Source: Loxodes magnus
Taxonomy: Eukaryota; Ciliophora; Karyorelictea; Loxodida; Loxodidae
Direction: 5' to 3'
Length of the DNA: 64,000 bases
Assembly: GCA_946699065.1 (NCBI GenBank)
Contig: CAMPDV010001963.1
Location: 1 to 64,000, forward strand
This document shows, piece by piece, positions 1,216-52,005 of the stretch. The first letter of the stretch is position 1. Each line of letters starts with the position of its first letter. The notes under the pieces are model-generated. The model was not told the origin of the DNA, did not search any database, and was given only the letters and a program-made list of their open reading frames with translations. Position numbers and translations under genes: made by a program.

Positions 1216-1286
1216 TTGTCCCACCGAGACTCGAACTCGGATTGTTGGATTTAGAGTCCAAAGTGCTACCATTACACCATAGGACC
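1216..1286 (-). tRNA. tRNA-Gln, anticodon CUA (reads UAG)
   Basis: Read on the minus strand this is a 71-nt cloverleaf. The acceptor 5' strand is GGTCCTA, the D arm contains GTGTAATGGTAGCAC, the anticodon stem is TTGGA/TCCAA, the loop is CTCTAAA and the T arm is CCGAG-TTCGAGT-CTCGG. Positions 34-36 are CUA, which pairs with UAG. This agrees with UAG being read as Gln in the genes here, and the loop matches the UAG-reading tRNA-Gln known from Tetrahymena. An oligo-T tract follows the 3' end. Oddity: position 72 is A opposite G1, so the first acceptor pair is mismatched, unlike copy 2 where it is G-C. The discriminator is A. Confidence 0.93.
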
Positions 1287-6890: not shown

Positions 6891-7600
6891 TCATTTAAAG
6901 AGATAACCACCCAACTAAGCTAAGCAAAATCCTAATAAGAATATGAAAACTGCTACTAAAACTTTCTATCCTTTCTTACTTTCGTCTTTGCCTTCTTGAT
7001 TCTTCATTTTATCAATTTCTATTATTTTTTAATTTCTCTTTCTCTTGCAGTTCGTTTTCTAGCAAAAACCATAGTCATATTGGGAATAAATTTCTGAATA
7101 AGTTGAGGAAAAATTAAACAAAGATTGAGAATGTAGTAAGATTTTTTATTAACTAAGGTAGTTTAGGCTAATTAATTTTCTATATTAGATGCATATGATA
7201 TTTCTCTTATTTTTCTTAGTTTAAACTTTAATTTATTTTAGAATATTCTAGAGTTTTCTTTTCTACTTGGAGAATTTCTGTACTTCTACAATAAAACAGA
7301 TTTCTTATGCTCTATTTCCTCGTTAGATATAATACTGCTAGCACTTATAGGACTAATAGGACTAATAGGACTAATTGGACTACTTTCATTGTTAGTTTTA
7401 CAAAAATTACCAGAACTATTACTTTCTAGCTCTACTAGGGGATAAAAAGATGGTTCTTAAATATTTTTTTATTGCAACGTTGGACTAGAAGAATTGTTTT
7501 ATTCTAAAGGAATAAATTAAGGTTGATTTATGTAGGGACTTGTTTCTTGAGGAATGAGTTATAGAGAGCATTAATAATTATAATATAGTTTAAATAAATG
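6891..7600 (-). CDS. Ser-Pro-Ile repeat protein with C-terminal membrane anchor (copy 1)
   Basis: On the minus strand a Ser/Pro/Asn-rich segment contains four consecutive Ser-Pro-Ile units (7,350-7,376 plus a divergent unit) followed by a basic region. After one change of reading frame, which I attribute to an unplaced short intron, the 3' end encodes a charged stretch and then a hydrophobic helix (VLVAVFIFLLGFCLAQLGG) and stops at TGA (6,891-6,893) four residues later, as in a tail-anchored protein. The start is not determined; 7,600 is approximate. The family is unknown to me. The frame choice around the repeats rests on the sensible composition of flanking sequence, so confidence is moderate. 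The nearest gene is far away and no operon is implied. Confidence 0.45.
7350..7376 (+). repeat. GGACTAATA 9-bp minisatellite, 3 units
   Basis: Three units; on the minus strand each encodes Ile-Ser-Pro. The same array has 25 units in copy 2 (29,385-29,609). Confidence 0.95.
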
Positions 7601-9035: not shown

Positions 9036-9119
9036 CCGGCAATAGCTCAGCTGGAAGAGCATGAGACTGTAGAATTAGTGGAAATCTCAGGGTCCTCGGT
9101 TCAATCCCGAGTTGCCGGA
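9036..9119 (+). tRNA. tRNA-Tyr, anticodon GUA, with 11-nt intron
   Basis: The acceptor CCGGCAA pairs with TTGCCGG (9,112-9,118) and the discriminator is A. C1-G72 is the eukaryotic Tyr identity pair. The anticodon stem is TGAGA/TCTCA, GTA lies at 9,069-9,071 and G37 at 9,072. An 11-nt intron (9,073-9,083) sits in the canonical place directly after position 37, leaving a 73-nt mature tRNA. TTTT follows the 3' end. The antisense reading ...QLGIEPRT... is a shadow of the tRNA. Confidence 0.96.
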
Positions 9120-11088: not shown

Positions 11089-13065
11089 ATGGTGTTGATC
11101 TCAAAAAAGCTGATTGGGATGGATACTGATTTACCAATTGACGCTCGAAATTACTAATGAATATTTGGATAAAATTAATTCCTAGAAACATACAGAAATC
11201 AAATTAGCAATAAGACTTAGAACTAATCTAATTAATTTATTTTTAATTCTCTAGGTTTATTAATATCTGCTGAGTGTCTATAGCTAGATTATTTAGTTAA
11301 AACATTTAATTAAATATTAGTATTCTAAAAGTAAAATTATGAAAGTAAAGAAGTCTCAAGTTTCGTGAAGAAAGAAATTAAAAAGGAGTATAACTTTATA
11401 ATATATAACCTATAATAAAAGCTAACTAAGAAAAATAGGCAAAATAGATCTAGAAAGTAGATCAATAGTATTCACATAGCAAGTTATTTTTCTTGATGTT
11501 CGCTCCTCCTGTAAATAAAGTTTAAATAGAAGTATCTTACTCGAATAACTATAACTATACAAATCCAGATGGTACTTAGGCACTTATCTAGTAAAGGTCA
11601 TTCTAGCAATTGAACTTGGAATTATGGAAATTAATGAAAGATATTATATTTTGCAGAACTTCACCTTAATAGCAATCGGGTATGGATTTGGAACTACAAA
11701 GTGGAATGTTGATTATATTGAGTAAAAATATTAAGAATAAAAAGACTATCTAGGAGTTGTAATACTAGCTCCTTTTACTTCCTAAATGTTGTAAAATTTG
11801 CTTTTGTACCTGCATTAACAAAATAATTTTATACCAGTAGTAGGGGAAAGGACAACAAACGCTATACTATCTAACAAAACAGCGTTTCCAGGTTTTGTTA
11901 CGACAATTTATTCAGATGCTTTTATGTCATTTTCATAAGTAAGAATTTTCTAAATTTACAACTGAACCAAAATATCTATTATTTACAGATCGTAAAAATG
12001 ATCTTAAGTTCTTGAACATAAAATTAGTCTGAACTCTATTAGTAATAATATTTTCCATATATGGATATACGAAATGAAAAAGCTTAAAAGATAAGAACTA
12101 AAAGAAAAGCAATTAAAGTGAATTTCTAAATTTCTTTTTGTTTTTTTCAATACTTAGCCAAAAAAGCTTGTTCAAGTTCTTCTTACAATAAGTGATATTT
12201 ATAACTGTATAGAAACTGCATATGTAAATAGATAATCTTGGATTTAAGAAAGCTTTTCATAGAGCAATTGTTATATTTTATGTTGGTAGAAAGATCATAA
12301 GAATTTGGTTATTATTGGTTCAGAATACTTTTTCTTTTATATTTCCTCCATCAGCTTCTTAAGACCTTTAGCATAGAAAATTCAAATAGAAACAGTAAAA
12401 AGCAGCCAGTTTATTGCCTCACTTTGTAAGCAATTTTCCAAGCTTTTCCAGTTTTATTGTAGTAATCACTATATTATAAGCACTAAAAGATTTATGCTGT
12501 CTTATTTATAATCTTATTTAACTTATTCTCATTAGCTATGATAAATATAAGACTTATAATTATGGAAGAATACACTGCGCTTATATAGGACGAACATTCT
12601 ACTATTTTAACTAAGACATCAGAAGCAAAGAATTAGATATTATGAGTAGTTCTTTTGCTATCAAGTTGAATATGCAAAGTGAATGGTATTTTAGTTATCA
12701 TTTACAAAAATTACTCTAAGATTTGCTTAGAAAAAAGCAAGACAACAATTTTTGGTTAGGATTGCATTTAAGCCTGCTGCAAATATTAACATGCTAAGTC
12801 ATTTATTGGGATAAAAGCAGTAATTAAAAAAATTTCAATTAAATCACCTGTTAAGATCAAAAAGATTCATCCTAAAAGACAAATTACTATTTAATCAAGC
12901 TAGATTTAATCTGATGAAAATGTTCGTAAAAAGAAAAATGAGAAAAATCAAGAAGAAACAAGTTAATTAAATTAGACTTTTATTAAAGAAGCAGACAACA
13001 CACCAGAACAAAACACTTTGGCAGAAAAAATTTTCAATTTTATTTATAAGGATTTTAAGTCCTGA
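11089..13065 (+). CDS. Possible multi-pass membrane protein (copy 1)
   Basis: One plus-strand frame reads from an ATG at 11,089 to a TGA at 13,063-13,065 (or, if that is Trp, to TGA at 13,177-13,179). It contains several hydrophobic stretches and, at about 12,420-12,540, a segment (QAIFQAFPVLLQQSLYY, then an FIILFNLFSL helix) resembling the E-A-x-P-Q-x-x-x-Q helix pattern of XK-related and similar protist membrane proteins. The C-terminal ~80 residues are charged and rich in Lys/Glu/Gln. The resemblance is weak, with Gln where Glu is usual. Competing frames look acceptable in places, and the start is uncertain. I regard coding as likely but the family as a guess. Copy 2 is frameshifted at 34,570. 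Confidence 0.4.
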
Positions 13066-14472: not shown

Positions 14473-17400
14473 TCATTCTTGATCAATCACTTCTCCAAAA
14501 TCTTTATTTTCTCTTCTTACCCTTTAATTTATATACTGTTCTTTTTAATTTTTTATGCTTCTCTCCATAATTTCTTCCTTTATCATTTATTTTTAACTTG
14601 TATTATCATGCTTATAATCATTAAATTCTAATTGCATTTCTTAATCAAAAGACACTTATTTTTGTTTAGACCTGTTGATATTTTCCTGGGTGATATCAAT
14701 AGCTTCTATTTCGCTTTATAAATTTGACTTTTTTTCTTGTTAATCCTTTCTTTAAGATATTAGAGTATCCTAACAAGTTTAGAAACCAACATATTTCTCG
14801 TCACTTGGAAAAAGTTCTTTTAATATTTTAGAATACTTTGAGTCTTAGTACAGATCATATGAAATGTTCTCCCCTTTCCTTATAATATTGACTTCTAAAA
14901 TAAAAAATTACTATTTTTAAAAGCTAACTATTCGCAGTAAGGATTAACTGAAGCCTTTTATTTTCTTAAACATTGCTTATATAGAATAAAGCATATTTTC
15001 ATTAAAAATACTAATAAAATAACTGCAATGTTAAAATATCCAGATGGACTATTTAGTTTTTCTTATATTGAACTCTTAGAGCATCGATAAACGTCTTCAT
15101 AATATTAGGTTGAGTTTCCATATAGTTAAAAAAGCTTACATGCACTTTTATCGTAGTCACATTCTATAATATCGCATTCTTAGTCGCAGATAAGGTTTTC
15201 CAAATTATTTAAGCCACATTTATTTTTCTTACATGCTGATTCATTGAATTAACTAGGATAATCTTAACAATCTTTATTTTCTTATCTGCACTCAGGTATA
15301 TTGCATTTCACATCGCATATAGAGTCTCTAAAAAAACTCTAAGGACACATATCAGGACATATACTACAATCCGATCTGTCATAGAGACACATCTCAATAT
15401 TGCATTCTTCATCACATATAGAATCTCCAAGTCAATATAGTTTACATCCAAGTTTTTAGCATTATTCTTCTTGAAAAGTTATTTCTTTTATTTTTTATAC
15501 TTTTATATGATATAAGCAATCCCCTAAATCATTTGAACACTCTTCAACGTTACATTAATCATCGCAAATATTATCATTAATATAGTAAAAAAAGCATTGC
15601 TATTTTAAATCACAAGTCAAGCAATCTTAACTATCAAAATTGCATTATATGTTATTGCACTCTTGTTCGCATTTTCAATTGCCAATTTGATTTCAATTAC
15701 AATCTTTATTGCAATATTAATCATTAGATTATGTTATTGTTTAGCTAGTCTGTTAACAATCTAGAAGATCGTTAAAGCAACCGCTATTATAACACTACTA
15801 ATTGCAAATGCCATTTCCTATTTCTTTTCCTAAGCATTTTCCTTCTTTGTCACATGTTTAATTTTAGCAATCTCCACCATCAAATCCACATAAAATGTGA
15901 AAGCATTCTCATTGACATTTACCGTCTCTTATTTCTTCTCATTTGCATTAAGGTTAACAATGGGTAAAGTTCATTTAAATATACTTATTATATTACTCGC
16001 AATCTCCCTTGTCAAAGTTTTTTTAAGGATTGTTACAAAGAGCATCACACCATCCATTTTAAAGCTATTTTCGAAAACAAATAGTATTCCAAAATTCATT
16101 ATAGCAAGCATTTGAATCCCATCCACACAAGTAAGTGAAGCATTCTTAATCGCATACATTATTATTGAGCATATCTTAAGTGCATCCTCGACTACATTAA
16201 ATTTTATCCTGCATTTCTCTTTAAGCTTAAGCTTTATTTTATAAATATTCTTTGCAATCACCTTTGTCAAATTAGCATTCCTCTATATTGCATTGTAAGT
16301 CGCATCAACCATCTTCGAGTTGTTTAATGAAGCATAGCTAATTCATATCACAATAACAATCAGAACCATCTCAATTGCAATCTTTATTGAAGCAAACTTA
16401 GGAACACACACCATCTCCTATATTTTTTCATTGACAATCTACACTACAATAATCTTAAGGATCATGCTGCTATTCGCAATCGCCTCCATCATAGTCACAT
16501 TCTTCTGTATTGTATATTTCTTCACATACTCCGTTACTTTTTTACATTAAGTTGCATCCTAAACCTCCACAAATACATTCTCCGTTATCATAATTACAGG
16601 ATAGAATGTTACATTATATATCGCATTTCTTATTATTCAGCATAGATTCTGGACAATAACATTTCTAATTATTTAAGCAGTCTGCTCCATCAAAGTCGCA
16701 CATACTATTGAAACATTATAAATCACATTCACCATTGTTTATATCATTTAGCTTATTGCATAAAAGACTATTTTCTTAGTCTGTATAGCATATGCAATGA
16801 TAATTATCATAATCAAATTGCTCTTAGTTGCATTCTTGATCACATTCCCTATTATATAACAAATTATCGCTGCAAAATTAGACATTTGAAAGAATGCAAT
16901 CTCCTCAGTCATAACTGCATATAGTGGTATTACAAGAAAGTTTGCAAAATCCATTGCCAAGTTCTTCTTACGAGCATGAACAATTCTAACTATATTAGCA
17001 ATCAAATTAATCGTAATAGCATTCTGGAATGTTACACTCTGGTTCGCATATGCCATTATTTATTTAAGTATAATCGCATTTCGTAAAGTTTAAATTGCAG
17101 CAATCATATATGTCGAACATACAACTTTTAGTTAAGCATTATTATTAGCATTTTCCATCTCCCAGAAATTAGTATTAGCATACTTTTTATGAATCTTATA
17201 ATGGTTCGTTCGTGTTTGGATCTAAGTTATTACAGCTAATTTCAAGTTTATCCAAGCAATCTTAGGAATTTAAATCATATTGGCATTCAGGATTGAAGCA
17301 TTCCCAATCACAGTTTTGATATTCAAGTTTTCGTACTTAGCATAATTATTTTGAATCACAAGTAGCACAGTCACCTCAATCATATAGACATTCTTCAACG

Positions 17401-19967
17401 TTACATTTGATATCACATATATTGTTACCAAATTAAAGTATTTAACAATCTTAGCAGCAATCTCCATAATCAAATTAGCAAGTTGAAATTTTACATTCAC
17501 TATCACAAATTCCATTTCCTCACTTCTCAGCTGTACATTTTGAGTTTTAAAAGCAGCAATCTCCATTATCATAATTGCATTCTTATATTAAGCAATCAGT
17601 ATCACATTCAGAATTTTACATTTTTTCCTTGTCACACTTTTTTCCTGATTTTTCATAGCAGCAATTCCAATTTTACCACATGCATTGCTATGTGTTACAT
17701 TGCGAATTGCAACTTAAACTATCATGTTACAAATATTCCAAGCTACATGTATCTGAACAGATTAATGTTTCTTCGCTTTATAGTATCCTTGTTTTCTAAG
17801 CTGATTTTAAATTATACCAATAGAAATAATTGGCATAGCTAGAAACATAAGTTTCATATTTCTGAGGAAATATATCTGACCAGCCATAGATGAATATGGC
17901 AAAGACTGCATGGATGATAACAAGTAAATTAAGTAAATTCAAGATGCTTTCTTAAATCCTATGAGAGATTTTAGGAGGTTTTTTATAATGCTTAAATAGC
18001 AAAGCTTTATCTATTCAATAATTTAAGAAAACTACTATAAAAGCGATGTATGTTAAAAAGGGAATTCCTGCTGAATACACAAAGACTGTGAAGAGTACGG
18101 CTAATATTTCCGAGTACATTATTGAAATATTGAATTCAGGTCCAACCATGCTTCTGTTGAGTTCCAACTAATTTTTAGCTTTCTTTTTCTTTAAGTTCTA
18201 TAATAGTTTCTATAAAGGCCATAATAAGAGTTTGGTAATAGTTGGTTATACAATGAAAGCAAATATAGTTAAAGTAATAGAATTTCCAACGTCTAGGTAT
18301 CAATATCTAGTAAAATCTTCATATTTATCAAGATTAGCAATTAGAGTGATAAAGGCAGTATTAATAAACGAAGCTATGAATATTTTAGCCAAAATAGATT
18401 TATATATTTAACTTAAAGTCTAATTTCCTTAGAACTTCGTGAGGACAGCAAAAATTAAGTTGATGAGAGTATTTAAGACTATTATTATGATAGTATTTGA
18501 AGTTTTCTAGGTAATTAGTTACAACTCTTTCGTTTTGAAATCCTAGCAGAATGAAGATAATTCAGTATCTTCAAAAATAATTTCGTTTCAATCTTGTTCT
18601 AAGCATCAGCAATAATAGCAAATGTCGTTATTTATAAAAGTCTTAGAAGCAACTTCTAATGGAAATTTTGAAATATCGAAAGTAGTTTTATCCTCTACAA
18701 TTTTAAAATATACTTAACACTCTGGTTTTGTAAACATATCTCACTCTATATCTTTAAGTTGCTTTATCAAAAATACCGCTCCTATTAATATAGCTATAAC
18801 TGATATCCACGAGAAAAGTGCTCTCACTATTTTTTTGTGTTTATCTAAATTTTCCCATATAATATTCTCAGGAATTTCAGCTTCTTATACCACTAAAGAT
18901 TTAACTCCGTTCCATTTTAACTTAGAAGATTATAGAATTTATAAGCCGAATCTTTTGCCATATTCTTTTAGGCACTATTGCTATGATTCTTTATATTAGA
19001 ATATTACAAAGACTTTTTCTATGCTGAAGCTCTGAATGTTCTAATGTTGCTATTTTTATTCTTTTATCTTCGATTCAATTTTATCTAATTTTCTGACTTA
19101 TTTCTCTTTATTTTTATTTTGAGCAATCTTTTGTAATATTTTTGCCTTTTCATTACTAAGCTATAGTATGGTTTTAAAATTCCTTGCGAAGCTAACTTCA
19201 TAGACTTCTCCAAATCTGAGTTTGAAAAAATCTTGAACTTCCCTCTAAGTAATTCCTGAAGTTGGTAAACCGTTAATTTCTACTGCGTATTATTAGACTG
19301 AAAATTCTGTTTCTTAGTAGCTTCTTTTGATTCTATGGAGTCTAAACTTGTAAAAATATATGAAAATTATTAAAATAAGAGAGTTCGCAAAATCTACTGC
19401 TGAATATATAAAAAGCTTTTATTTAGACTCATCCAGTAATTTTTCTTCTTTCTCTTTTTAGTCTTCCTTTATATAGTCGTCGAGCCATTAAAGTTAAAAT
19501 CCTTTATCTTTTGATAATCTTTGATAGACCAAAGTTTCGTTAAAATGTAAAGGCACTTTGCTCGAGCCAGTATCTAAATTTCCAATAGTAAAATAGTCGA
19601 TAAATTAAGCTGACATTCCACTGAATCAACCCCCTTAATAGTTTTATATGACCAAATATGTGGAGTTAGCACAGATAATAGCCAAGCAGAAGGCTAATCA
19701 TTTTAGGAAATCAAAATATAAAAATAATCCTAGTCCATACTTCTTTAGTACGCTAATATCAGTCTTAAAAACTGGATATTGACAATGATTTTGTGAATCA
19801 TAAGCTGAATTTTATAGCTTATACATATTAGCGATGACTAAATTAGGCTTTTACTAATAACTCTATAAGGAATCAATTCCTGTTATAAAGTCTGTAGTAT
19901 CCTCTAAAGGTCTTGATAAAACTAACTGAGAAAGTCTTCTCTCAACACCTTCATAAATTTAAGCCAT
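14473..19967 (-). CDS. OSCA/TMEM63-like channel fused to ~22 Notch (LNR) repeats, copy 1
   Basis: The minus-strand gene runs from ATG (19,965-19,967) to TGA (14,473-14,475). Removing one 17-nt intron leaves 1,826 codons. Residues ~1-700 follow the CSC1/OSCA/TMEM63 plan: TM helices at ~80-108 and ~187-212; a cytosolic RRM-like domain opening with YAVEINGLP and closing near EKVFVIFQYKES; the family hallmark IPENIIWENL at ~365; then several TM helices including the stretch GPEFNISIMYSEIL...YSAGIPFLTY...NYWIDKALL. Residues ~730-1,625 hold about 22 Lin-12/Notch repeats with the C-x3-C...C-x-x-D-x-x-D-C pattern (CDYDGGDC, CGFDGGDC, CNYDNGDC). A final TM helix (YFNIAVILLVFLMKICFIL) and a charged tail follow. 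At least a dozen internal TGAs fall where Trp is expected (NYWIDK, CNWDGSDC). The channel part is likely in the plasma membrane with the LNR array outside the cytosol, to judge from its Cys content. Confidence 0.93.
14895..14911 (-). other. 17-nt spliceosomal intron in the OSCA-LNR gene
   Basis: GTAATTTTTTATTTTAG on the minus strand. Without its removal the cytoplasmic tail changes frame; with it the tail continues in a charged, Glu/Lys-rich frame to the TGA. It is identical in copy 2 (37,128-37,144), and total length minus 17 is divisible by three in both copies. Confidence 0.8.
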
Positions 19968-22206: not shown

Positions 22207-22490
22207 ATTTTATTATTTTTAATCAATAGCTTAGATAAATAATAAACCGGCAATAGCTCAGCTGGAAGAGCATGAGACTGTAGAATTAGTGGAAATCTCA
22301 GGGTCCTCGGTTCAATCCCGAGTTGCCGGATTTTGATATTTAAATAATAAAAAATAAAATAATAGAAACTAAAGTCTAAATAACTACCTCTATCTATTTT
22401 GATAAAACAAGTCCTTCAATTAAATCCATTTTAATATTTATTAGCTTTAAAATAAAAGTAAATAGATAAGCAAGGCATATTTTAATATAG
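22207..22490. other. tRNA-Tyr-bearing block present only in copy 2
   Basis: Copy 1 runs from AATTATGTG directly into TATAGATGTAGTTATT, whereas copy 2 carries this block in between. Its flanks resemble those of the tRNA-Tyr loci at 9.0 and 31.3 kb on both sides, including a diverged form of the downstream inverted repeat. It is therefore a duplicated tRNA locus, either inserted here or lost from copy 1. Confidence 0.8.
22247..22330 (+). tRNA. tRNA-Tyr, anticodon GUA, with 11-nt intron (third locus)
   Basis: Identical over all 84 nt, intron included, to the gene at 9,036-9,119, although the flanks are diverged. That suggests selection or gene conversion on the tRNA. TTTT follows. Confidence 0.95.
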
Positions 22491-23165: not shown

Positions 23166-23236
23166 TGGTCCCACCGAGACTCGAACTCGGATTGTTGGAT
23201 TCAGAGTCCAAAGTGCTACCATTACACCATAGGACC
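23166..23236 (-). tRNA. tRNA-Gln, anticodon CUG (reads CAG)
   Basis: Positional counterpart of the CUA tRNA at 1,216-1,286. The 71-nt cloverleaf is the same except that the loop is CTCTGAA, giving anticodon CUG, and position 72 is C, restoring a G1-C72 pair. It therefore reads the canonical Gln codon CAG rather than UAG. An oligo-T tract follows the 3' end. Confidence 0.93.
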
Positions 23237-28925: not shown

Positions 28926-29833
28926 TCATTTAAAGAGATAACCACCCAACTAGGCTAAGCAAAATCCTAATAAGAATATGAAAACTGCTACTAAAACTTT
29001 CTATCCTTTCTTACTTTCGTCTTTGCCTTCTTGATTCTTCATTTTATCAATTTCTATTATTTTTTCATTTCTCTTTCTCTTGCAGTTCGTTTTCTAGCAA
29101 AAACCATAGTCATATTGGGAATAAATTTCTGAATAAGTTGAGGAAAAATTAAACAAAGATTGAGAATGTAGTAAGATTTTTTATTAACTAAGGTAGTTTA
29201 GGCTAATTAATTTTCTATATTAGATGCATATGATATTTCTCTTATTTTTCTTAGTTTAAACTTTAATTTATTTTAGAATATTCTAGAGTTTTCTTTTCTA
29301 CTTGGAGAATTTCTGTACTTCTACAATAAAACAGATTTCTTATGCTCTATTTCCTCGTTAGATATAATACTGCTAGCACTTATAGGACTAATAGGACTAA
29401 TAGGACTAATAGGACTAATAGGACTAATAGGACTAATAGGACTAATAGGACTAATAGGACTAATAGGACTAATAGGACTAATAGGACTAATAGGACTAAT
29501 AGGACTAATAGGACTAATAGGACTAATAAGACTAATAGGACTAATAGGACTAATAGGACTAATAAGACTAATAGGACTAATAAGACTAATAGGACTAATA
29601 GGACTAATTGGAGTACTTTCATTGTTAGTTTTACAAAAATTACCAGAACTATTACTTTCTAGCTCTACTAGGGGATAAAAAGATGGTTCTTAAATATTTT
29701 TTTATTGCAACGTTGGACTAGAAGAATTGTTTTATTCTAAAGGAATAAATTAAGGTTGATTTATGTAGGGACTTGTTTCTTGAGGAATGAGTTATAGAGA
29801 GCATTAATAATTATAATATAGTTTAAATAAATG
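28926..29833 (-). CDS. Ser-Pro-Ile repeat protein with C-terminal membrane anchor (copy 2)
   Basis: Counterpart of 6,891-7,600 with the same C-terminal hydrophobic helix and TGA stop (28,926-28,928). The Ser-Pro-Ile tract is expanded from 3 to 25 nine-base units (29,385-29,609). All added units are multiples of three, so the frame is kept. Three units read Ser-Leu-Ile through a GGACT to AGACT change. As in copy 1, one short intron or frame change between the repeat part and the anchor is unplaced, and the start is approximate. Confidence 0.45.
29385..29609 (+). repeat. GGACTAATA 9-bp minisatellite, 25 units
   Basis: 225 bp, 25 units without any length irregularity, with a few AGACTAATA variants in the right half. 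It explains 198 nt of the register shift between the two large repeats. On the minus strand it encodes (Ile-Ser-Pro)n. The plus-strand Thr-Asn-Arg and minus-strand Leu-Val-Leu readings are shadows. Confidence 0.98.
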
Positions 29834-31270: not shown

Positions 31271-31354
31271 CCGGCAATAGCTCAGCTGGAAGAGTATGAG
31301 ACTGTAGAATTAGTGGAAATCTCAGGGTCCTCGGTTCAATCCCGAGTTGCCGGA
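31271..31354 (+). tRNA. tRNA-Tyr, anticodon GUA, with 11-nt intron (copy 2)
   Basis: Counterpart of 9,036-9,119. The only difference is C to T at 31,295, the last base of the D stem, which turns the 10-25 G-C pair into G-U. That is tolerable, so the gene is probably still functional. Confidence 0.93.
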
Positions 31355-36705: not shown

Positions 36706-39700
36706 TCATTCTTGATCAATCACTTCTCCAAAATCTTTATTTTCTCTTCTTACCCTTTAATTTATATACTGTTCTTTTTAATTTTTTATGCTTCTCTCCA
36801 TAATTTCTTCCTTTATCATTTATTTTTAACTTGTATTACCATGCTTATAATCATTAAATTCTAATTGCATTTCTTAATCAAAAGACACTTATTTTTGTTT
36901 AGACCTGTTGATATTTTCCTGGGTGATATCAATAGCTTCTATTTCGCTTTATAAATTTGACTTTTTTTCTTGTTAATCCTTTCTTTAAGATATTAGAGTA
37001 TCCTAACAAATTTAGAAACCAACATATTTCTCGTCACTTGGAAAAAGTTCTTTTAATATTTTAGAATACTTTGAGTCTTAGTACAGATCATATGAAATGT
37101 TCTCCCCTTTCCTTATAATATTGACTTCTAAAATAAAAAATTACTATTTTTAAAAGCTAACTATTCGCAGTAAGGATTAACTGAAGCCTTTTATTTTCTT
37201 AAACATTGCTTATATAGAATAAAGCATATTTGCATTAAAAATACTAATAAAATAACTGCAATGTTAAAATATCCAGATGGACTATTTAGTTTTTCTTATA
37301 TTGAACTCTTAGAGCATCGATAAACGTCTTCATAATATTAGGTTGAGTTTCCATATAGTTAAAAAAGCTTACATGCACTTTTATCGTAGTCACATTCTAT
37401 AATATCGCATTCTTAGTCGCAGATAAGGTTTTCCAAATTATTTAAGTCACATTTATTTTTCTTACATGCTGATTCATTGAATTAACTAGGATAATCTTAA
37501 CAATCTTTATTTTCTTATCTGCACTCAGGTATATTGCATTTCACATCGCATATAGAGTCTCTAAAAAAACTCTAAGGACACATATCAGGACATATACTAC
37601 AATCCGATCTGTCATAGAGACACATCTCAATATTGCATTCTTCATCACATATAGAATCTCCAAGTCAATATAGTTTACATCCAAGTTTTTAGCATTATTC
37701 TTCTTGAAAAGTTATTTCTTTTATTTTTTATACTTTTATATGATATAAGCAATCCCCTAAATCATTTGAACACTCTTCAACGTTACATTAATCATCGCAA
37801 ATATTATCATTAATATAGTAAAAAAAGCATTGCTATTTTAAATCACAAGTCAAGCAATCTTAACTATCAAAATTGCATTATATGTTATTGCACTCTTGTT
37901 CGCATTTTCAATTGCCAATTTGATTTCAATTACAATCTTTATTGCAATATTAATCATTAGATTATGTTATTGTTTAGCTAGTCTGTTAACAATCTAGAAG
38001 ATCGTTAAAGCAACCGCTATTATAACACTACTAATTGCAAATGCCATTTCCTATTTCTTTTCCTAAGCATTTTCCTTCTTTGTCACATGTTTAATTTTAG
38101 CAATCTCCACCATCAAATCCACATAAAATGTGAAAGCATTCTCATTGACAATCGCCGTCTTCTACTTCTTCTCATTTGCATTAAGGTTAACAATGAGTAG
38201 AGTTCATTTAAATATACTTATTATATTACTCGCAATCTCCCTAGTCAAAATTTTTTTAAGGATTGTTACAAAGAGCATCACACCATCCATTTTAAAGCTA
38301 TCTTCCAAAACAAATAGTATTCCAAAATTCATTATAACATGCATTTGAATCCCATCCACACCAGTAAGTAAAGCAATATTAGTCGCATTCATTATTATTG
38401 AGCATATCTTAAGTGCATCCCCGGCTACATTAAATTTTATCCTGCATTTCTCTTTAAGCTTTATTTTATAAATATTCTTTGCAATCACCTTTGTCAAATT
38501 AGCATTCCTCTATATTGCATTGAATATCGCATCAACCATCTCCAAGTTGTTTAATGAAGCATAGCTAATTCATATCACAATAGCAATCAGAGCCATCTCA
38601 ATTGCAATCTTTGTTGAAGCAAACTTAAGAACATACACCATCTCCTATATTTTTTCATTGACAATCTACACTACAATAATCTTAAGGATCATGCTGCTAT
38701 TCGCAATCGCCTCCATCATAGTCACATTCTTCTGTATTGCATATTTCTTCACATACTCCGTTACTTTTTTATATTAAGTTGCATTCTTAACTTCCACAAT
38801 CACATTCTTCGTTATCATAATTACAGGATAGAATGTTGCATTATATATCGCATTTCTTATTATTCAGCATAGATTCTGGACAATAACATTTCTAATTATT
38901 TAAGCAGTCTGCTCCATCAAAGTCACACATGCTATTATAGCATTATAAATCGCATAAACCATTGTTTATATCATTTAGCTTATTGCATAAAAGACTATTT
39001 TCTTAGTCTGTATAGCATATGCAATGATAATTATCATAATCAAATTGCTCTTAGTTGCATTCTTGATCACATTCCCTATTATATAACAAATTATCGCTGC
39101 AAAATTAGACATTTGAAAGAATGCAATCTCCTCAGTCATAACTGCATATAGTGGTATTACAAGAAAGTTTCCAAAATCCATTGCCAAGTTCTTCTTACGA
39201 GCATGGACAATTCTAACTATATTAGCAATCAAATTAATCGTAATAGCATTCTGGAATGTTACACTCTGGTTCGCATATGCCATTATTTATTTAAGTATAA
39301 TCGCATTTCGTAAAGTTTAAATTGCAGCAATCATATATGTCGAACATACAACTTTTAGTTAAGCATTATTATTAGCATTTTCCATCTCCCAGAAATTAGT
39401 ATTAGCATACTTTTTATGAATCTTATAATGGTTCGTTCGTGTTTGGATCTAAGTTATTACAGCTAATTTCAAGTTTATCCAAGCAATCTTTGGAATTTAA
39501 ATCATATTGGCATTCAGAATTGAAGCATTCCCAATCACAGTTTTGATATTCAAGTTTTCCTACTTAGCATAATTTTTTTGAATCACAAGTAGCACAATCA
39601 CCTCAATCATATAGACATTCTTCAACGTTACATTTGATATCACATATACTGTTACCAAATTAAAGCATTTAACAATCTTAACAACAATCTCCATAATCAA

Positions 39701-42194
39701 ATTAACAAATTGAAATTTTACATTCACTATCACAAATTCCATTTCCTCATTTCTCAGCTGTACATTTTGAGTTTTAAAAGCAGCAATCTCCATTATCATA
39801 ATTGCATTCTTATATTAAGCAATCAGTATCACATTCAGAATTTTTAATTTTTTCCTTGTCACACTTTTTTCCTGATTTTTCATAGCAGCAATTCCAATTT
39901 TACCACATGCATTGCTATGTGTTACATTGCGAATTGCAACTTAAACTATCATGTTACAAATATTCCAAGCTACATGTATCTGAACAGATTAATGTTTCTT
40001 CGCTTTATAGTATCCTTGTTTTCTAAGCTGATTTTAAATTATACCAATAGAAATAATTGGCATAGCTAGAAACATAAGTTTCATATTTCTGAGGAAATAT
40101 ATCTGACCAGCCATAGATGAATATGGCAAAGACTGCATGGATGATAACAAGTAAATTAAGTAAATTCAAGATGCTTTCTTAAATCCTATGAGAGATTTTA
40201 GGAGGTTTTTTATAATGCTTAAATAGCAAAGCTTTATCTATTCAATAATTTAAGAAAACTACTATAAAAGCGATGTATGTTAAAAAGGGAATTCCTGCTG
40301 AATACACAAAGACTATGAAGAGTAGGGCTAATATTTCCGAGTACATTATTGAAATATTGAATTCAGGTCCAACCATGCTTCTGTTGAGTTCCAACTAATT
40401 TTTAGCTTTCTTTTTCTTTATATTCTATAATAATTTCTATGAAGGCCATAATAAGAGTTTGGTAATAGTTGGTTATACAATGAAAGCAAATATAGTTAAA
40501 GTAATAGAATTTCCAACGTCTAGGTATCAATATCTAGTAAAATCTTCATATTTATCAAGATTAGCAATTAGAGTGATAAAGGCAGTATTAATAAACGAAG
40601 CTATGAATATTTTAGCCAAAATAGATTTATATATTTAACTTAAAGTCTAATTTCCTTAGAACTTCGTGAGGACAGCAAAAATTAAGTTGATGAGAGTATT
40701 TAAGACTATTATTATGATAGTATTTGAAGTTTTCTAGGTAATTAGTTACAACTCTTTCGTTTTGAAATCCTAGCAGAATGAAGATAATTCAGTATCTTCA
40801 AAAATAATTTCATTTCAATCTTGTTCTAAGCATCAGCAATAATAGCAAATGTCGTTATTTATAAAAGTCTTAGAAGCAACTTCTAACGGAAATTTTGAAA
40901 TATCGAAAGTAGTTTTATCCTCTACAATTTTAAAATATATTTAACACTCTGGTTTTGTAAACATATCTCATTCTATATCTTTAAGTTGCTTTATCAAAAA
41001 TACCGCTCCTGTTAATATAGCTATAACTGATATCCATGAGAAAAATGATCTCACTATTTTTTTGTGTTTATCTAAATTTTCCCATATAATATTCTCAGGA
41101 ATTTCAGCTTCTTATACTACTAAAGATTTAGCTCCGTTCCATTTTAACTTAGAAGATTATAGAATTTATAAGCAGAATCCTTTGCCATATTCTTTGAGGC
41201 ACTTTTGTTATGATTCTTTATATTAGAATATTACAAAGACTTTTTCTATGCTGAAGCTCTGAATGTTCTAATGCTGTTATTTTTATTCCTTTATCTTCGA
41301 TTCAATTTTATCTAATTTTATGACTTATTTCTCTTTATTTTTATTTTAAGCAATTTTTTGTAATATTTTTGCTTTTTCATTACTAAGCTATATTATAGTT
41401 TTAAAATTCCTTGCGAAGCTAACTTCATAGACTTCTCCAAATCTTTACTAGAAAAAATCTTGAACTTCCCTCTAAGTAATTCCTGAAGTTGGTAAACCGT
41501 TAATTTCTACTGCGTATTATTAGACTGAAAATTCTGTTTCTTAGTAGCTTCTTTTGATTCTATGGAGTCTAAACTTGTAAAAATATATGAAAATTATTAA
41601 AATAAGAGAATTCGCAAAATCTACTGCTGAATATATAAAAAGCTTTTATTTATACTCATCCAGTAATTTTTCTTCTTTCTCTTTTTAGTCTTCCTTTATA
41701 TAGTCGTCGAGCCATTAAAGTTAAAATCCTTTATCTTTTGATAATCTTTGATAGACCAAAGTTTCGTTAAAATGTAAAGGCACTTTGCTCGAGCCAGTAT
41801 CTAAGTTTCCAATGGTAAATTAATCGATAAATTAAGCTGACATTCCACTGAATCAACCCCCTTGATAGTTTTATATGACCAAATATGTGGAGTTGGCGCA
41901 GATAATAGCTAAGCAGATTGCTAATCATTTTAGGAAATCAAAATATAAAAATGATCCTAGTCCATACTTCTTTAGTACGCTAATATCAGTCTTAAAAACT
42001 GGGTATTAGCAATGATTTTCCGAGTTTATAACTGAATTTTATAACTTGTATATATTAGCAATCACTTAGTTTGGTCTTTACTAAGAACTCTATAAGGAAT
42101 AATTTCCCTGTATACAGTCTGTAGTATCCTCTACAGCTCTTGTTAAAATTAACTAAGAAAGTCTTCTCTCAACAGCTTCATAAACTTAAGCCAT
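36706..42194 (-). CDS. OSCA/TMEM63-like channel fused to ~22 Notch (LNR) repeats, copy 2
   Basis: ATG at 42,192-42,194, TGA at 36,706-36,708, same 17-nt intron; 1,824 codons after splicing, so intact like copy 1. Domain order is the same: two N-terminal TM helices, RRM-like domain, the IIWENL hallmark, the TM bundle, ~22 LNRs, a last TM helix and a charged tail. Divergence from copy 1 is uneven: clearly raised over the first ~75 codons (MAQVYEAVERRLSQL versus MAQIYEGVERRLSQL, then many changes), low through the channel, and moderate in parts of the LNR array, for example around 38,140-38,400. This looks like patchwork conversion between older paralogues, or relaxed or diversifying change in the ectodomain. 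Confidence 0.93.
37128..37144 (-). other. 17-nt intron in the OSCA-LNR gene, copy 2
   Basis: Identical to 14,895-14,911. Confidence 0.8.
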
Positions 42195-44445: not shown

Positions 44446-46372
44446 TCATTTAAACTAAAAGGATTCTTTTTCCGGTTCTCCTAATTGCTCCTATATAGAT
44501 TATTTTGACTACTCAAATAAAATTGAACTCCATTAATCTTTTTATGCATCATAGATATATATTTTTTCTCTATCAAATACGTATATTTAATTTCTATCAA
44601 TAATAGAACTTTAGTAGCAAGGTTATCCTGGATAAGGCTTATTTGATATTTTAATCAATTATGGATTATTTCTTTCTCACTTCAACTAGTAAACACCATC
44701 AAGAAACTCGCCAAATACGTAAACTATTCCTTGTTCTTAATCTTTTATTATACTGATTGATGAGCTTTAGGGCAAACAGATCTTAGCTTTTTCCCAAACG
44801 TTTAAATTAGTATTATATACTTAAACTTATCCCAGTCTTTAGTAATCTTTATCGATTCCTCCTAGCATTACTATGTCTTAATCTACTAATATGCAACCTT
44901 AATTTTTTCCTTGGAACTCTATATCTTCAAGTTAAAAAATTGTTGTAAATTGAAATCAAAGTATTCGCACTTTTACTGATCTTATTAACTAGATAAATTT
45001 CCTGAAATAATATAGATATATCTATTGTTATTTACTATTCTTTAAACTAATCCAGGACCACTTCTAGGAGATATCATTTCTACTGTAATCAATACTTAAA
45101 AAGATTCTCTCTCAATTACCTAAAAGCTTTTAGGAAAGGCTCCGTTTGTTTTTCCTCCTGCAAGGAAAATAAGATCCTAAGTATAATAAACAGAACTTTC
45201 TTCATCCATTCTAATTTAACTTTTTTGAATTTTTTATTCTTAAAAAGAGATTCCAGTTTTAATTAAGCGTGTATTAGTATCCTTTAAGAAGAAAATATTT
45301 GGATTCATTTTACCGTCAAATGAACTATTAAATGAAAAACTATTAGAGTTAAGGACTATTATGAGGTATGGCAATTCATTGAACTTAAACTTTGACATTT
45401 GGATTATTTATCTAAATTGATAGCTAGTTTTTACTTAATTTGCTTTAGCTTATATCTGAATTCTTAAATGCTAGGTCTTTCTTAATAATTATAACTAAAT
45501 GATTTAGTTAAAAGATCTGCAAGCATTTCCTCTTTCTATATTTCAGCTGAAAATTATGGATGCAATTTTTGCTAAAATGCTAGTTAACGAATTTATCTGA
45601 AAGATGCTTAATTTGGTCAAGGTATTGTTTCGTTAAAAATTTCGATAGCGACACAGGCTAATGACCAAATATCACTTTAAATATAAACGCTATTATTAAA
45701 TAATTCAGGCGCCATCCATTAAATTGTTCCTCTGATTTTTGAAGTTATAGAGCTTTATTGCTAAGTACTGATAACAAAATCTACTTTTATAGGAGAGTCA
45801 TTTTCATCCATTAAAATATTTAGTGAATTAATGTCTAAATGAATTAAACCTTCGTTGTGAATAGCCATAACTCCTTAGGCAATCTAACCAAGCAATGTTA
45901 TCTTTTTTATAAATCTGGCTTATGGGTTTTCTTTAAATTAACTGAACAAAGTTTTATTTTGGATAATTCAATATAAGGTTCCTCTTTAGTAATAATTCGT
46001 AAAATGACAAAAAATATAGTTATGTTCTTCTGAAGTATCTATAGCTACGCCCTTAATTCTTAGAACTCTTTTGTGATTTATTAGCAAAAGTGACTTACAT
46101 TCATTATAAAAGTTATCAATTAATTATTGCCAGTCAATAGGCCATATTTACTAGAATATTCTAAGAGCATAATCTACTCCTTCAATTTATATTTTATAAG
46201 TTTTCCCTCATGTGTTTTCTTCAATAAGTTTCAAACAATTTAAATCTTCTCGACAAGGAAAAAGCTCTTTATAACTCCATAATCTTATAGGAGCAGTAGG
46301 ATCTCTACTAGCTCCATTATTTTTAAGTAATTCTCATATATCTTCTACAGATATCTATTTGGCTTCCTCCAT
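44446..46372 (-). CDS. Divergent protein kinase-like domain with C-terminal kelch repeats
   Basis: ATG at 46,370-46,372, TGA at 44,446-44,448. Residues ~45-330 follow a TKL-type kinase fold: a glycine-loop-like segment, a YALRIF strand, IHLDINSLNIL, KVDFVIS, GTIQWMAPE and SDIWSLACVAIEIF...IPWPN. Key residues are altered: the VAIK lysine is Arg, HRD is HLD, the catalytic-loop Lys is Asn and DFG is DFV, so it may be a pseudokinase. A kelch-type domain follows (LIFLAGG, YIYIISGN, CEYFDFN, IVMLGG, VQVYNTNLNVW). Five internal TGAs read as Trp, including the conserved IPWPN. Two frame changes interrupt the gene: one near 45,412-45,434, where a 23-nt GT...AG intron would restore the frame, and one near 44,927-44,945, where no GT...AG fits and a single-base indel is likely. 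Confidence 0.85.
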
Positions 46373-49921: not shown

Positions 49922-50158
49922 TCAAAATATTTTAGTCCATTCCAAAATATTTTAGTCCGTTCCAAAATATTTTAGTCCGTTCCAAAATATTTTAGTCCGT
50001 TCCAAAACTTTTTAGTCCGTTCCAAAATATTTTAGTCCGTTCCAAAACTTTTTAGTCCGTTCCAAAATATTTTAGTCCGTTCCAAAATTTTTTAGTCCAA
50101 TCCAAAATTTTTAGTCCATTCCAAAATTTTTTAGTCCAATCCAAAATTTTTAGTCCAT
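49922..50158 (+). repeat. 20-bp tandem repeat TCCAAAATATTTTAGTCCGT
   Basis: About 12 units. Early units are nearly perfect; later ones degenerate to AAAATTTTTTAGTCCAA forms. Each intact unit contains the palindrome AAAATATTTT. Confidence 0.93.
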
Positions 50159-50205
50159 CAAAAAAAATATCTTGCAGTGTAAAACGCTGAGCAAAAAAAG
50201 GCTTT
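50151..50205 (+). repeat. 55-bp motif, first copy
   Basis: Begins TAGTCCATCA and contains AGTGTAAAACGCTGAGCAAA. A near-identical copy lies at 50,558-50,612, 407 bp away in the same orientation, with unrelated pyrimidine-rich DNA between. The first copy abuts the 20-bp array. Confidence 0.88.
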
Positions 50206-50557
50206 CACCATTTTTCCCTTTATAACACTTCTCATTTTCTTAAAAAAAATTCCCCTCTAACATCCGACTCATCCCAAAAACACTCCATTAATCTTTCCTT
50301 TCACCTTCTCTTACTCTTATCACCAAATTACTTTTTACTCATTTTCAAAAATCAAAAAATTTTATTCTCGCTCATTCACAAAATATTTTGAAAAATAATT
50401 TTCAAATTTTTTTATTCCTAACTCTATTTTCATTTAACCAAAAAAATTTGTCCCTTTCTTAAATTTTTTACCTTTTTTCAAAAAATATCCTATACAATTA
50501 TTTCTTTTTTACACATAATTCATTCCATCCCTCCCCCTATCCACTTTAACCCTCCTC

Positions 50558-50612
50558 TAGTCCATCAAAAAAAATCTCTTGTAGTGTAAAACGCTGAGCA
50601 AAAAAAGACTTT
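50558..50612 (+). repeat. 55-bp motif, second copy
   Basis: Differs from the copy at 50,151 at only a few positions. It is followed shortly by the 10-bp array. Confidence 0.88.
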
Positions 50613-50634
50613 TTTATTTTTCATGAATTTCAGC

Positions 50635-50740
50635 CACTTCTTTACACTTCTTTACACTTCTTTACACTTCTTTACACTTCTTTACACTTCTTTACACTTC
50701 TTTACACTTCTTTACACTTCCTTGCACCTCTTTATACTTC
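50635..50740 (+). repeat. 10-bp tandem repeat TTTACACTTC
   Basis: Eight perfect units followed by degenerate ones. Confidence 0.93.
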
Positions 50741-51320
50741 TAATCTACTTCCTTTAACTCCACTATCTCTTTCTACGCACTCATTTATTTTACACTCCTT
50801 CTCCCTTCTTTCAATTTTCTTTATTCTTTCCTTTGTTACCTTTTCTTCTTTACTTCAAAATTTTTTCCCTTTCTTACTTACATTTTTTTCTCTTACAAAA
50901 AAAAATTTTTTTTTCTTTTTATTCTTTTTTCTTTTTTCTCTTACTTTTCTTTTCTTTCTTGCTTTTTTAATTTTTTTCCTTTCTTAATTTCCTTTTTTTC
51001 CTTTTCTTTTTCTTTTTTTTCTTTTTCTTTTTCTTTTTTTTCTTTTTCTTTTTTTTCTTCTTTTCTTTCTTACTTTCCTTTTCTTACTTTTTTTCTTTTC
51101 TTTCTTACTTTCTTACTTTCCTTTTCTTACTTTTCTTACTTTTCTTACTTTTCTTTTATTCTTTTTCTTTTTTTTATTTTCTTTGGTTTTTTCTTCTTTT
51201 TTTCTTTCTTGCTTTTTTTTCTTTTTTTTCTTTTTTTTCTTCTTTTTCTTCTTTTCTTTCTTACTTTCCTTTTCTTACTTTTTTTCTTTTCTTTCTTACT
51301 TTCTTACTTTCCTTTTCTTA

Positions 51321-51510
51321 CTTTTCTTTTTCTTTTTTTTCTTTTTTTTCTTTTTTTTCTTTTTTTTCTTTTTTTTCTTTTTTTTCTTTTTTTTCTTTTT
51401 TTTCTTTTTTTTCTTTTTTTTCTTTTTTTTCTTTTTTTTCTTTTTTTTCTTTTTTTTCTTTTTTTTCTTTTTTTTCTTTTTTTTCTTTTTTTTCTTTTTT
51501 TTCTTACTTT
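51321..51510 (+). repeat. 9-bp tandem repeat (T)8C
   Basis: About 20 units of eight T and one C inside a wider T/C-rich tract (about 50,880-51,630). The long Phe/Leu plus-strand frames here are compositional artefacts. Confidence 0.9.
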
Positions 51511-51650
51511 TTTTTTTCTTTTCTTTTCTTTTCTTCTTTTTTCCCTTTCTTACTTTTCTTTATTTTTTCTTTTCTTCTTTTCTTCTTTTCCTTTTTCTCT
51601 TTTGTTTTTTTTATTTTTATTTTCTTATTTCATTTAACTCACTCTTCACT

Positions 51651-51835
51651 TACTCTATTCATACTCTATACATACTCTATACATACTCTATACATACTCT
51701 ATACATACTCTATTCATACTCTATTCATACTCTATACATACTCTATTCATACTCTATTCATACTCTATACATACTCTATACATTTCTATACATACTCTAT
51801 TCATACTCTATACATACTCTATTTATAAACTCTAT
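51651..51835 (+). repeat. 11-bp tandem repeat TACTCTATACA
   Basis: About 16 units alternating between TATACA and TATTCA endings. Confidence 0.92.
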
Positions 51836-51939
51836 TTATATAATTTATATACCATCTAATTATACACATAATTTATAATACTCTAATTTACTTTTAATAC
51901 TTTATAATCTTTAAATCACTTTAATATACTTTAAATACT

Positions 51940-52005
51940 TTAATTCACTTTATAATACTTTATAATACTTTATAATACTTTAATAACTTTATAATAATTT
52001 TAAAT
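51940..52005 (+). repeat. 10-bp repeat ACTTTATAAT
   Basis: Several imperfect units immediately 3' of the TRIM-like gene. Confidence 0.8.

Follow-up and report, generated by a model that had tools for sequence, protein, structure and literature searches.

The 64,000-nucleotide stretch of the karyorelict ciliate Loxodes magnus considered here (contig CAMPDV010001963.1 of assembly GCA_946699065.1, positions 1 to 64,000; hereafter the window) carries on its minus strand, in two tandem copies, what is almost certainly a single gene joining a membrane protein of the OSCA/TMEM63 type with an array of Lin-12/Notch repeats (LNRs). The explanation that we find best overall, and would accept or doubt in about equal measure, is a channel of this type that lacks the transmembrane (TM) helix TM0 and carries its LNR chain in the loop between TM9 and TM10, from where the chain would act on the gate. 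A first-pass annotation had placed the two copies at 14,473-19,967 and 36,706-42,194, and the duplication was borne out: translated with TAA/TAG as Gln and TGA as Trp, both have a single frame that runs from the channel part through the LNR array to a TM helix, and their proteins are 96% identical before splicing. The strand, which had been left unstated, is the minus strand at both copies for all three parts; a plus-strand reading of 14,473-19,967, where the protein does not appear, was discarded.

An intact frame of more than 1,820 codons had been offered as an argument that the fusion is real. This argument has no weight, since reading TAA/TAG as Gln and TGA as Trp leaves every frame open and no frame can close. 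Selection and the junction itself carry the case for one gene. Between copies, the ratio of nonsynonymous to synonymous divergence (dN/dS) is 0.26 for exon 1 (p ~1e-14). Taken separately, the channel (codons 78-735) has a ratio of 0.20 (p 3.8e-8), and the remainder of exon 1, the LNR part, one of 0.29 (p 2.5e-6). In the two other sense frames the ratio is 0.86 and 0.74; in the antisense frames it is 1.29, 0.97 and 0.43, and the value of 0.43 is significant as well. Exon 2 and the last helix together show 0 synonymous and 3 other differences, too few for dN/dS, and the gene as a whole has one indel, of 6 nt and in frame, among ~150 substitutions. By these ratios, purifying selection is holding both copies across the channel and LNR parts. 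At the junction, residue 702 is the last of TM9 and residue 821 the first of the third LNR core; there is no in-frame TGA between codons 651 and 816, so the channel cannot stop after TM9 before the third LNR core. The codon-usage score over TM7-TM8, just before the junction, does not favour the gene's frame, which would suit two neighbouring genes, or an assembly join, misread as one. We regard this as very unlikely: the frame is unchanged on both sides of the junction, selection acts on both parts and both copies contain the junction. Separate channel and LNR genes were rejected on the TGA-free junction together with the selection on both parts. GC content, at 0.28-0.32 at the junction and 0.18-0.25 in the upstream flank, was dropped as strong coding evidence because non-coding stretches downstream of the gene reach 0.35-0.40.

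The features of the gene are as follows.

14473..19967, minus strand: copy 1, OSCA/TMEM63-type protein with LNR array, 1,825 amino acids spliced, TGA stop at 14,475-14,473
36706..42194, minus strand: copy 2, tandem duplicate, 1,823 amino acids spliced
19737..19967, minus strand: hydrophilic N-terminus, residues 1-77, TM0 not found; proposed start codon at 19,967-19,965
19638..19739, minus strand: TM1 region, residues 77-110 (hydropathy; RSN1_TM match in copy 2 only)
19335..19421, minus strand: TM2 region, residues 183-211 (hydropathy)
18849..19292, minus strand: PHM7_cyt cytosolic domain, residues 226-373 (Pfam)
18846..18863, minus strand: IIWENL motif, residues 369-374, at the position of OSCA DIYWPNL / DVFWSNL (alignment, by eye)
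18741..18839, minus strand: TM3 region, residues 377-409 (hydropathy)
18426..18506, minus strand: TM4 region, residues 488-514 (hydropathy, Pfam)
18327..18407, minus strand: TM5 region, residues 521-547 (hydropathy, Pfam)
18210..18281, minus strand: TM6 region, residues 563-586 (hydropathy)
17991..18140, minus strand: TM7 and TM8, a single hydrophobic stretch, residues 610-659 (hydropathy, alignment)
17862..17960, minus strand: TM9 region, residues 670-702 (hydropathy)
17760..17861, minus strand: linker from TM9 to the array, residues 703-736, free of hydrophobic stretches and in-frame TGA
15138..17759, minus strand: array of 23 LNR modules, residues 737-1610
14961..15050, minus strand: last TM helix, proposed TM10, residues 1640-1669
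14895..14911, minus strand: proposed 17-nt intron, copy 1
37128..37144, minus strand: proposed 17-nt intron, copy 2
14476..14894, minus strand: exon 2, most of the charged cytosolic tail
14473..14475, minus strand: TGA stop codon of copy 1, the first in-frame TGA past codon 1512

The CSC1-type plan ascribed to the channel part was upheld by profile search for its cytosolic portion, where PHM7_cyt passes its curated cut-off, while the 7TM domain was found just under its own. With the whole protein as query, Pfam returned PHM7_cyt at E 3.4e-9 (copy 1) and 4.4e-10 (copy 2) and RSN1_7TM weakly, at E 0.25 and 0.015. Searched as pieces, the same copies gave PHM7_cyt between TM2 and TM3 at E 3.6e-11 and 3.8e-12 (44.0 and 47.2 bits; cut-off 27) and RSN1_7TM at E 2.3e-5 and 1.6e-6 (24.4 and 28.2 bits; cut-off 28.7). 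RSN1_TM was matched in copy 2 only (17.8 bits, cut-off 27; E 0.0028), from model position 63 of 156, and the Pfam search of copy 1 pieces found no match to it. The three matches follow the OSCA/TMEM63 order. When OSCA1, OSCA1.2, TMEM63A and TMEM63B were aligned to it with MAFFT, no gaps against TMEM63 fell in TM7-TM8 or in the loop that follows. The likeness to the family comprises PHM7_cyt between TM2 and TM3, a 7TM region in order though matched just under its cut-off, a W-x-N-L motif ahead of TM3 and a TM7-TM8 stretch that aligns to TMEM63; the Loxodes protein differs in that TM0 was not found, in five cysteines in its TM3-TM4 loop and in ~940 residues with 23 LNRs from TM9 to the last helix.

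Several results weigh against this assignment. RSN1_7TM falls below its cut-off in both copies (an OSCA1 piece scores 282 and a TMEM63B piece 197), the MAFFT alignment is poor outside TM7-TM8, with TM3-TM6 aligning badly, and the TM7-TM9 piece by itself has no Pfam match. When the channel part was run with phmmer against the PDB, no OSCA/TMEM63 chain was returned up to E 10, and hhalign against four PDB-derived sequences gave a probability of 10%, with E 0.0031 for one comparison. Structure prediction, named earlier as a check on the translation, gave a useless model of the channel part (AlphaFold with a two-row alignment; predicted local distance difference test, pLDDT, 33.5). The 7TM score below cut-off and the failure to find TM0 could point to a degenerate, non-conducting family member whose membrane part merely anchors a surface protein. 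This is improbable in our estimation, for the channel part is constrained at least as much as the LNR part (dN/dS 0.20 versus 0.29). OSCA/TMEM63 membership is supported by the cytosolic domain together with the 7TM match just under cut-off, and the protein is likely a working channel or scramblase. Relatives were sought in viral contigs (8 and 71 pattern matches) and in prokaryote genomes (69 matches from two short peptides) and none was confirmed in either, as expected for a ciliate gene.

Members of the OSCA/TMEM63 family are described as having helices TM0-TM10, with the N-terminus outside and the C-terminus inside (PMC6235563; PMC10636204). Hydropathy of the Loxodes protein gives nine helices before the array, if residues 610-659 are counted as TM7 plus TM8, and one after it; no helix is found in residues 702-737. 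If the first helix is TM1, the N-terminus therefore lies inside, TM9 exits outward into an extracellular array, and the last helix crosses back as TM10. Lysine plus arginine make up 28-30% of the residues of the TM6-TM7 and TM8-TM9 loops; the cytosolic domain has 19%, the tail 18% and the array-bearing segment 7%. Our data lend moderate support to the presence of TM1-TM10 with both termini cytosolic and suggest that the LNR array is probably an insertion in the extracellular TM9-TM10 loop, a placement that rests mainly on helix count and sidedness.

The same two lines, which make the last helix TM10, speak against the plan of the first-pass annotation, in which an LNR ectodomain is appended to a complete channel and ends in an additional anchoring helix. 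We consider that plan decidedly improbable: the stretch from TM9 to the first LNR offers no helix that could serve as TM10, and an array past a complete TM10 would be cytosolic, at odds with the 134 cysteines and low lysine plus arginine content of the segment. In its favour, the match between the last helix and TM10 is no more than moderate, is absent for the plant proteins OSCA1 and OSCA1.2, and comes from a noisy test. In this pairwise helix test, which lends modest support to the TM9-TM10 placement, the last helix outscored the other nine segments against TM10 of TMEM63A (z 4.4; next best 2.9) and of TMEM63B (z 4.5; next best 3.0). Weighing against the TM9-TM10 placement, the last helix did not match TM10 of OSCA1 or OSCA1.2 (z 0.7 and -0.8), and the test is noisy because it failed to recognise TM9 as TM9 (z 1.1, 1.2, 0.3 and -1.2) and gave a wrong pair, the TM2 segment with TMEM63A TM9, at z 3.6. 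On the same side, adding the last helix in a chimera with the LNRs excised brought no gain in score (RSN1_7TM 25.2 bits versus 28.2 without the helix; hhalign 29.1 versus 29.4). Pfam cannot test TM10, since RSN1_7TM ends before TM10 in OSCA1 and TMEM63B. Lysine plus arginine content is also indiscriminate elsewhere (N-terminus 10%, TM1-2 12%, TM3-4 11%, TM5-6 13%) and is 0% in the TM4-5 loop of nine residues.

TM0 is quite probably absent. Hydropathy of residues 1-76 finds no hydrophobic stretch that could be TM0, and the RSN1_TM match of copy 2 begins at model position 63, after the first 62 positions. Since there are ten helices by hydropathy and none in residues 1-76, we name the protein a TM0-less relative, as distinct from a regular member of OSCA/TMEM63. 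The pattern of indels between copies supports, without proving, a start at 19,967, an upstream exon being less likely: the ~320 bases upstream of the ATG have 103 substitutions in 312 aligned bases and eight indels (1 base in six cases, 4 and 10 bases in the other two), the last indel lying ~20 bases before the ATG, and the first 160 coding bases have 24 substitutions and no gap. This contrast is weakened because the upstream stretch is far more diverged (33%), and its indels may partly reflect that divergence. In TMEM63, TM0 has been proposed as a tension sensor; for TMEM63C, a tilt of TM0 with membrane thinning has been proposed, and coupling between TM0 and TM6 is reported as important for activity (PMC10636204). 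A plan of TM1-TM10 with no TM0 is described for TMEM16 (PMC6235563). The Loxodes protein probably shares that plan with TMEM16/anoctamin proteins, and has weak Pfam matches to them that are not significant (E 0.23 and 0.38); it differs from them in its cytosolic domain, which is PHM7_cyt.

The LNR array was confirmed, at 23 cores per copy (the first placed by hand at residue 753) where about 22 had been counted. Pfam assigns LNR at E 5.7e-86 (copy 1) and 3.2e-82 (copy 2), over 21 and 20 stretches. Modules follow the pattern C..C..C-x3-C-x4-C-x6-C, with the last four cysteines complete in 19 of the 23 cores of each copy, and the known calcium-ligand positions are occupied by N/D at C3-3 in 21/23, by D at C6-4 in 21/23 and by D at C6-1 in 17/23. 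The modules therefore mostly keep the cysteine pattern and the calcium-ligand positions, and calcium binding is predicted. For the LNRs, a phmmer search of the PDB matched Notch1, Notch3 and PAPP-A chains. A three-module model, for which all 21 triplets of copy 1 were aligned (pLDDT 63), matched the negative regulatory regions of Notch2, Notch1 and Notch3 as well as PAPP-A (best E 3e-4; 18 matches at E <=10, 4 at <=0.001), with low TM-scores by query length (0.22-0.28). Linkers span 13-37 residues over the array, and in cores 12-23 they run 17, 33, 18, 27, 20, 28, 18, 33, 16, 26. These cores repeat with a period of two modules (BLOSUM score averaging 28.5 at offset 2 versus 14.6 at offset 1, a comparison made without shuffles), and the distal half of the array probably arose by pairwise module copying.

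The modules are shared with Notch receptors, which provide the nearest solved structures both by sequence and by model. Notch has 3 such modules and the Loxodes array 23, and the Loxodes protein also differs in its multipass, channel-like membrane part. In Notch, the HD domain contains a cleavage site that is masked by the LNRs. Up to E 1, Pfam found only LNR, PHM7_cyt and RSN1_7TM in the unspliced Loxodes protein, and no HD (NOD/NODP), EGF or ankyrin match. The analogy with the Notch force switch drawn in the earlier reading is therefore weak, and we do not press it. PAPP-A likewise has LNR modules outside Notch, but is a secreted protease with no channel part. Within the channel family, the structural account of OSCA1.2 describes only short linkers on the extracellular side and no structured domain (PMC6235563), and in TMEM63A a soluble extracellular domain is described at the N-terminus, where it extends from M0 (PMC10319725); this domain is not equivalent to the Loxodes array between TM9 and TM10. 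No description of OSCA/TMEM63 combined with LNRs, or of TMEM63 in ciliates, was found among the open-licence papers listed by literature searches; the architecture may already be present, unnoticed, in ciliate annotations.

The claim of one continuous frame holds for the channel part, the LNR array and the TM helix; the charged tail lies in another frame and would be reached by a splice. The last ~145 codons of the long frame are unlike the remainder, and a plausible charged tail can be read in another frame. A 17-nt GT..AG stretch, GTAATTTTTTATTTTAG at 14,895-14,911, links the two frames and is identical in copy 2. We offer it as a proposal, since it was picked by hand for length and low GC among many GT..AG pairs. 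Around it the codon-usage score switches weakly from the first frame to the other, and the spliced frame terminates at the TGA at 14,475-14,473, the end point given in the first-pass annotation. Intron lengths in Loxodes magnus are reported to have a mode of 17 bp, those of heterotrichs being 15-16 bp, and in Loxodes UGA is described as the sole stop, coding Trp if far upstream of the poly-A tail (PMC11441545). The gene has 18 in-frame TGA within codons 90-1512 and none from 1512 to the stop. Four codons swap TAA/TAG with CAA/CAG between copies, as expected for Gln; no TGA-TGG swap was seen between them. The 17-nt intron, the TGA stop and the Gln-type swaps fit what would be expected of a karyorelict gene.

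The copies lie in a tandem duplication of ~22 kb (1-20288 and 21737-42519), 97.6-98.3% identical in its two main blocks and 84-91% near its start. Synonymous divergence (dS) between copies of the channel gene is 0.36 in the first 77 codons and 0.06 in the remainder; gene conversion downstream is one possible reason for the higher divergence of the first 77 codons. Each tandem unit also holds one of two paralogous tRNA genes, at 1216-1286 (minus strand; anticodon CTA, reading TAG) and 23166-23236 (minus strand; CTG, Gln). They differ at two of 71 bases, one in the anticodon and one near the 3' end, the latter breaking, by eye, the first acceptor pair of the CTA tRNA. The CTA gene is perhaps a glutamine suppressor born by duplication, in keeping with TAG as Gln. 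Another tRNA gene is present in three copies (9036-9119, 22247-22330 and 31271-31354, plus strand), its anticodon not settled by ARAGORN. The 9-nt repeat TAGGACTAA occurs at 29374-29612 and 7339-7382, with 26.6 copies in one tandem unit and 4.9 in the other.

Elsewhere in the window, six-frame Pfam searches of three 5-kb stretches and of ten selected open reading frames revealed no second OSCA or LNR gene. Near the channel gene, an ANF_receptor ligand-binding domain was matched at 11606-12013 (plus strand; E 5.8e-8). The stretches 45458-46180 and 44524-45018 (both minus strand) gave a protein kinase domain (E 1.1e-28) plus weak Kelch matches under their cut-offs (E 2.4e-5 and 3.1e-4), and 53984-54310 (minus strand) gave a B-box zinc finger (E 3e-8) and, below its cut-off, a RING match (E 0.0015). 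Several tandem repeats occupy 49923-52000, with strong strand asymmetry (GC skew -0.73 in kb 50-51 and -0.96 in kb 51-52).

OSCA/TMEM63 proteins are regarded as channels opened by membrane tension (PMC10636204), and TMEM63B is reported to scramble lipids and to be restrained by its own C-terminal tail (PMC13332465). The Loxodes protein would be a surface cation channel of this kind and might scramble lipids as well. Its LNR chain, stabilised by calcium, would be joined to the membrane bundle at both ends, through TM9 and TM10. The chain would bind a partner outside the cell (cell coat, prey or substrate), and tension or binding on it could pass to TM9/TM10 and so move the gate. Lacking TM0, such a channel might depend to a lesser extent on tension in the bilayer and to a greater extent on pulling through the array; the cytosolic tail could serve as a brake. 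Force gating through the array is a tentative part of this scheme, and on present data a doubtful one. A credible competitor, to which we nevertheless give less than even weight, is that the array serves as an adhesion or ligand-recognition module, while the channel or scramblase responds to binding or to osmotic stress, or is gated without any involvement of the array. LNRs fold in a calcium-dependent way and have no inherent link to force, and those of PAPP-A are said to serve recognition. Our failure to find a Notch HD domain (by Pfam, in the unspliced protein) also fits recognition, and 23 modules with linkers of 13-37 residues could make a long recognition surface; recognition alone leaves unexplained why the array joins the membrane bundle at both ends. 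The rival explanations weighed here overlap partly with the TM0-less channel bearing its array in the TM9-TM10 loop, and our estimates for them are not meant to add up to a whole.

If the TM0-less relative with an array built into its membrane bundle is confirmed, it would offer a natural test of whether a tether outside the cell can drive the OSCA/TMEM63 pore, and would raise the question of whether LNRs serve, beyond Notch, as springs whose stiffness is set by calcium. Such a protein would also be a case of an LNR array built within the loop of a membrane protein, with signs of growth by two-module copying, and a TM0-less relative of OSCA/TMEM63 is of interest in its own right. At its boldest, and we think this unlikely, the reading would have the lineage lose TM0 and gain a 23-module, calcium-tunable LNR filament within the TM9-TM10 loop, converting a force-from-lipid channel into a force-from-filament one. 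Loxodes possesses Mueller organelles, and in karyorelicts such a channel could, speculatively, play a role in contact or gravity sensing.

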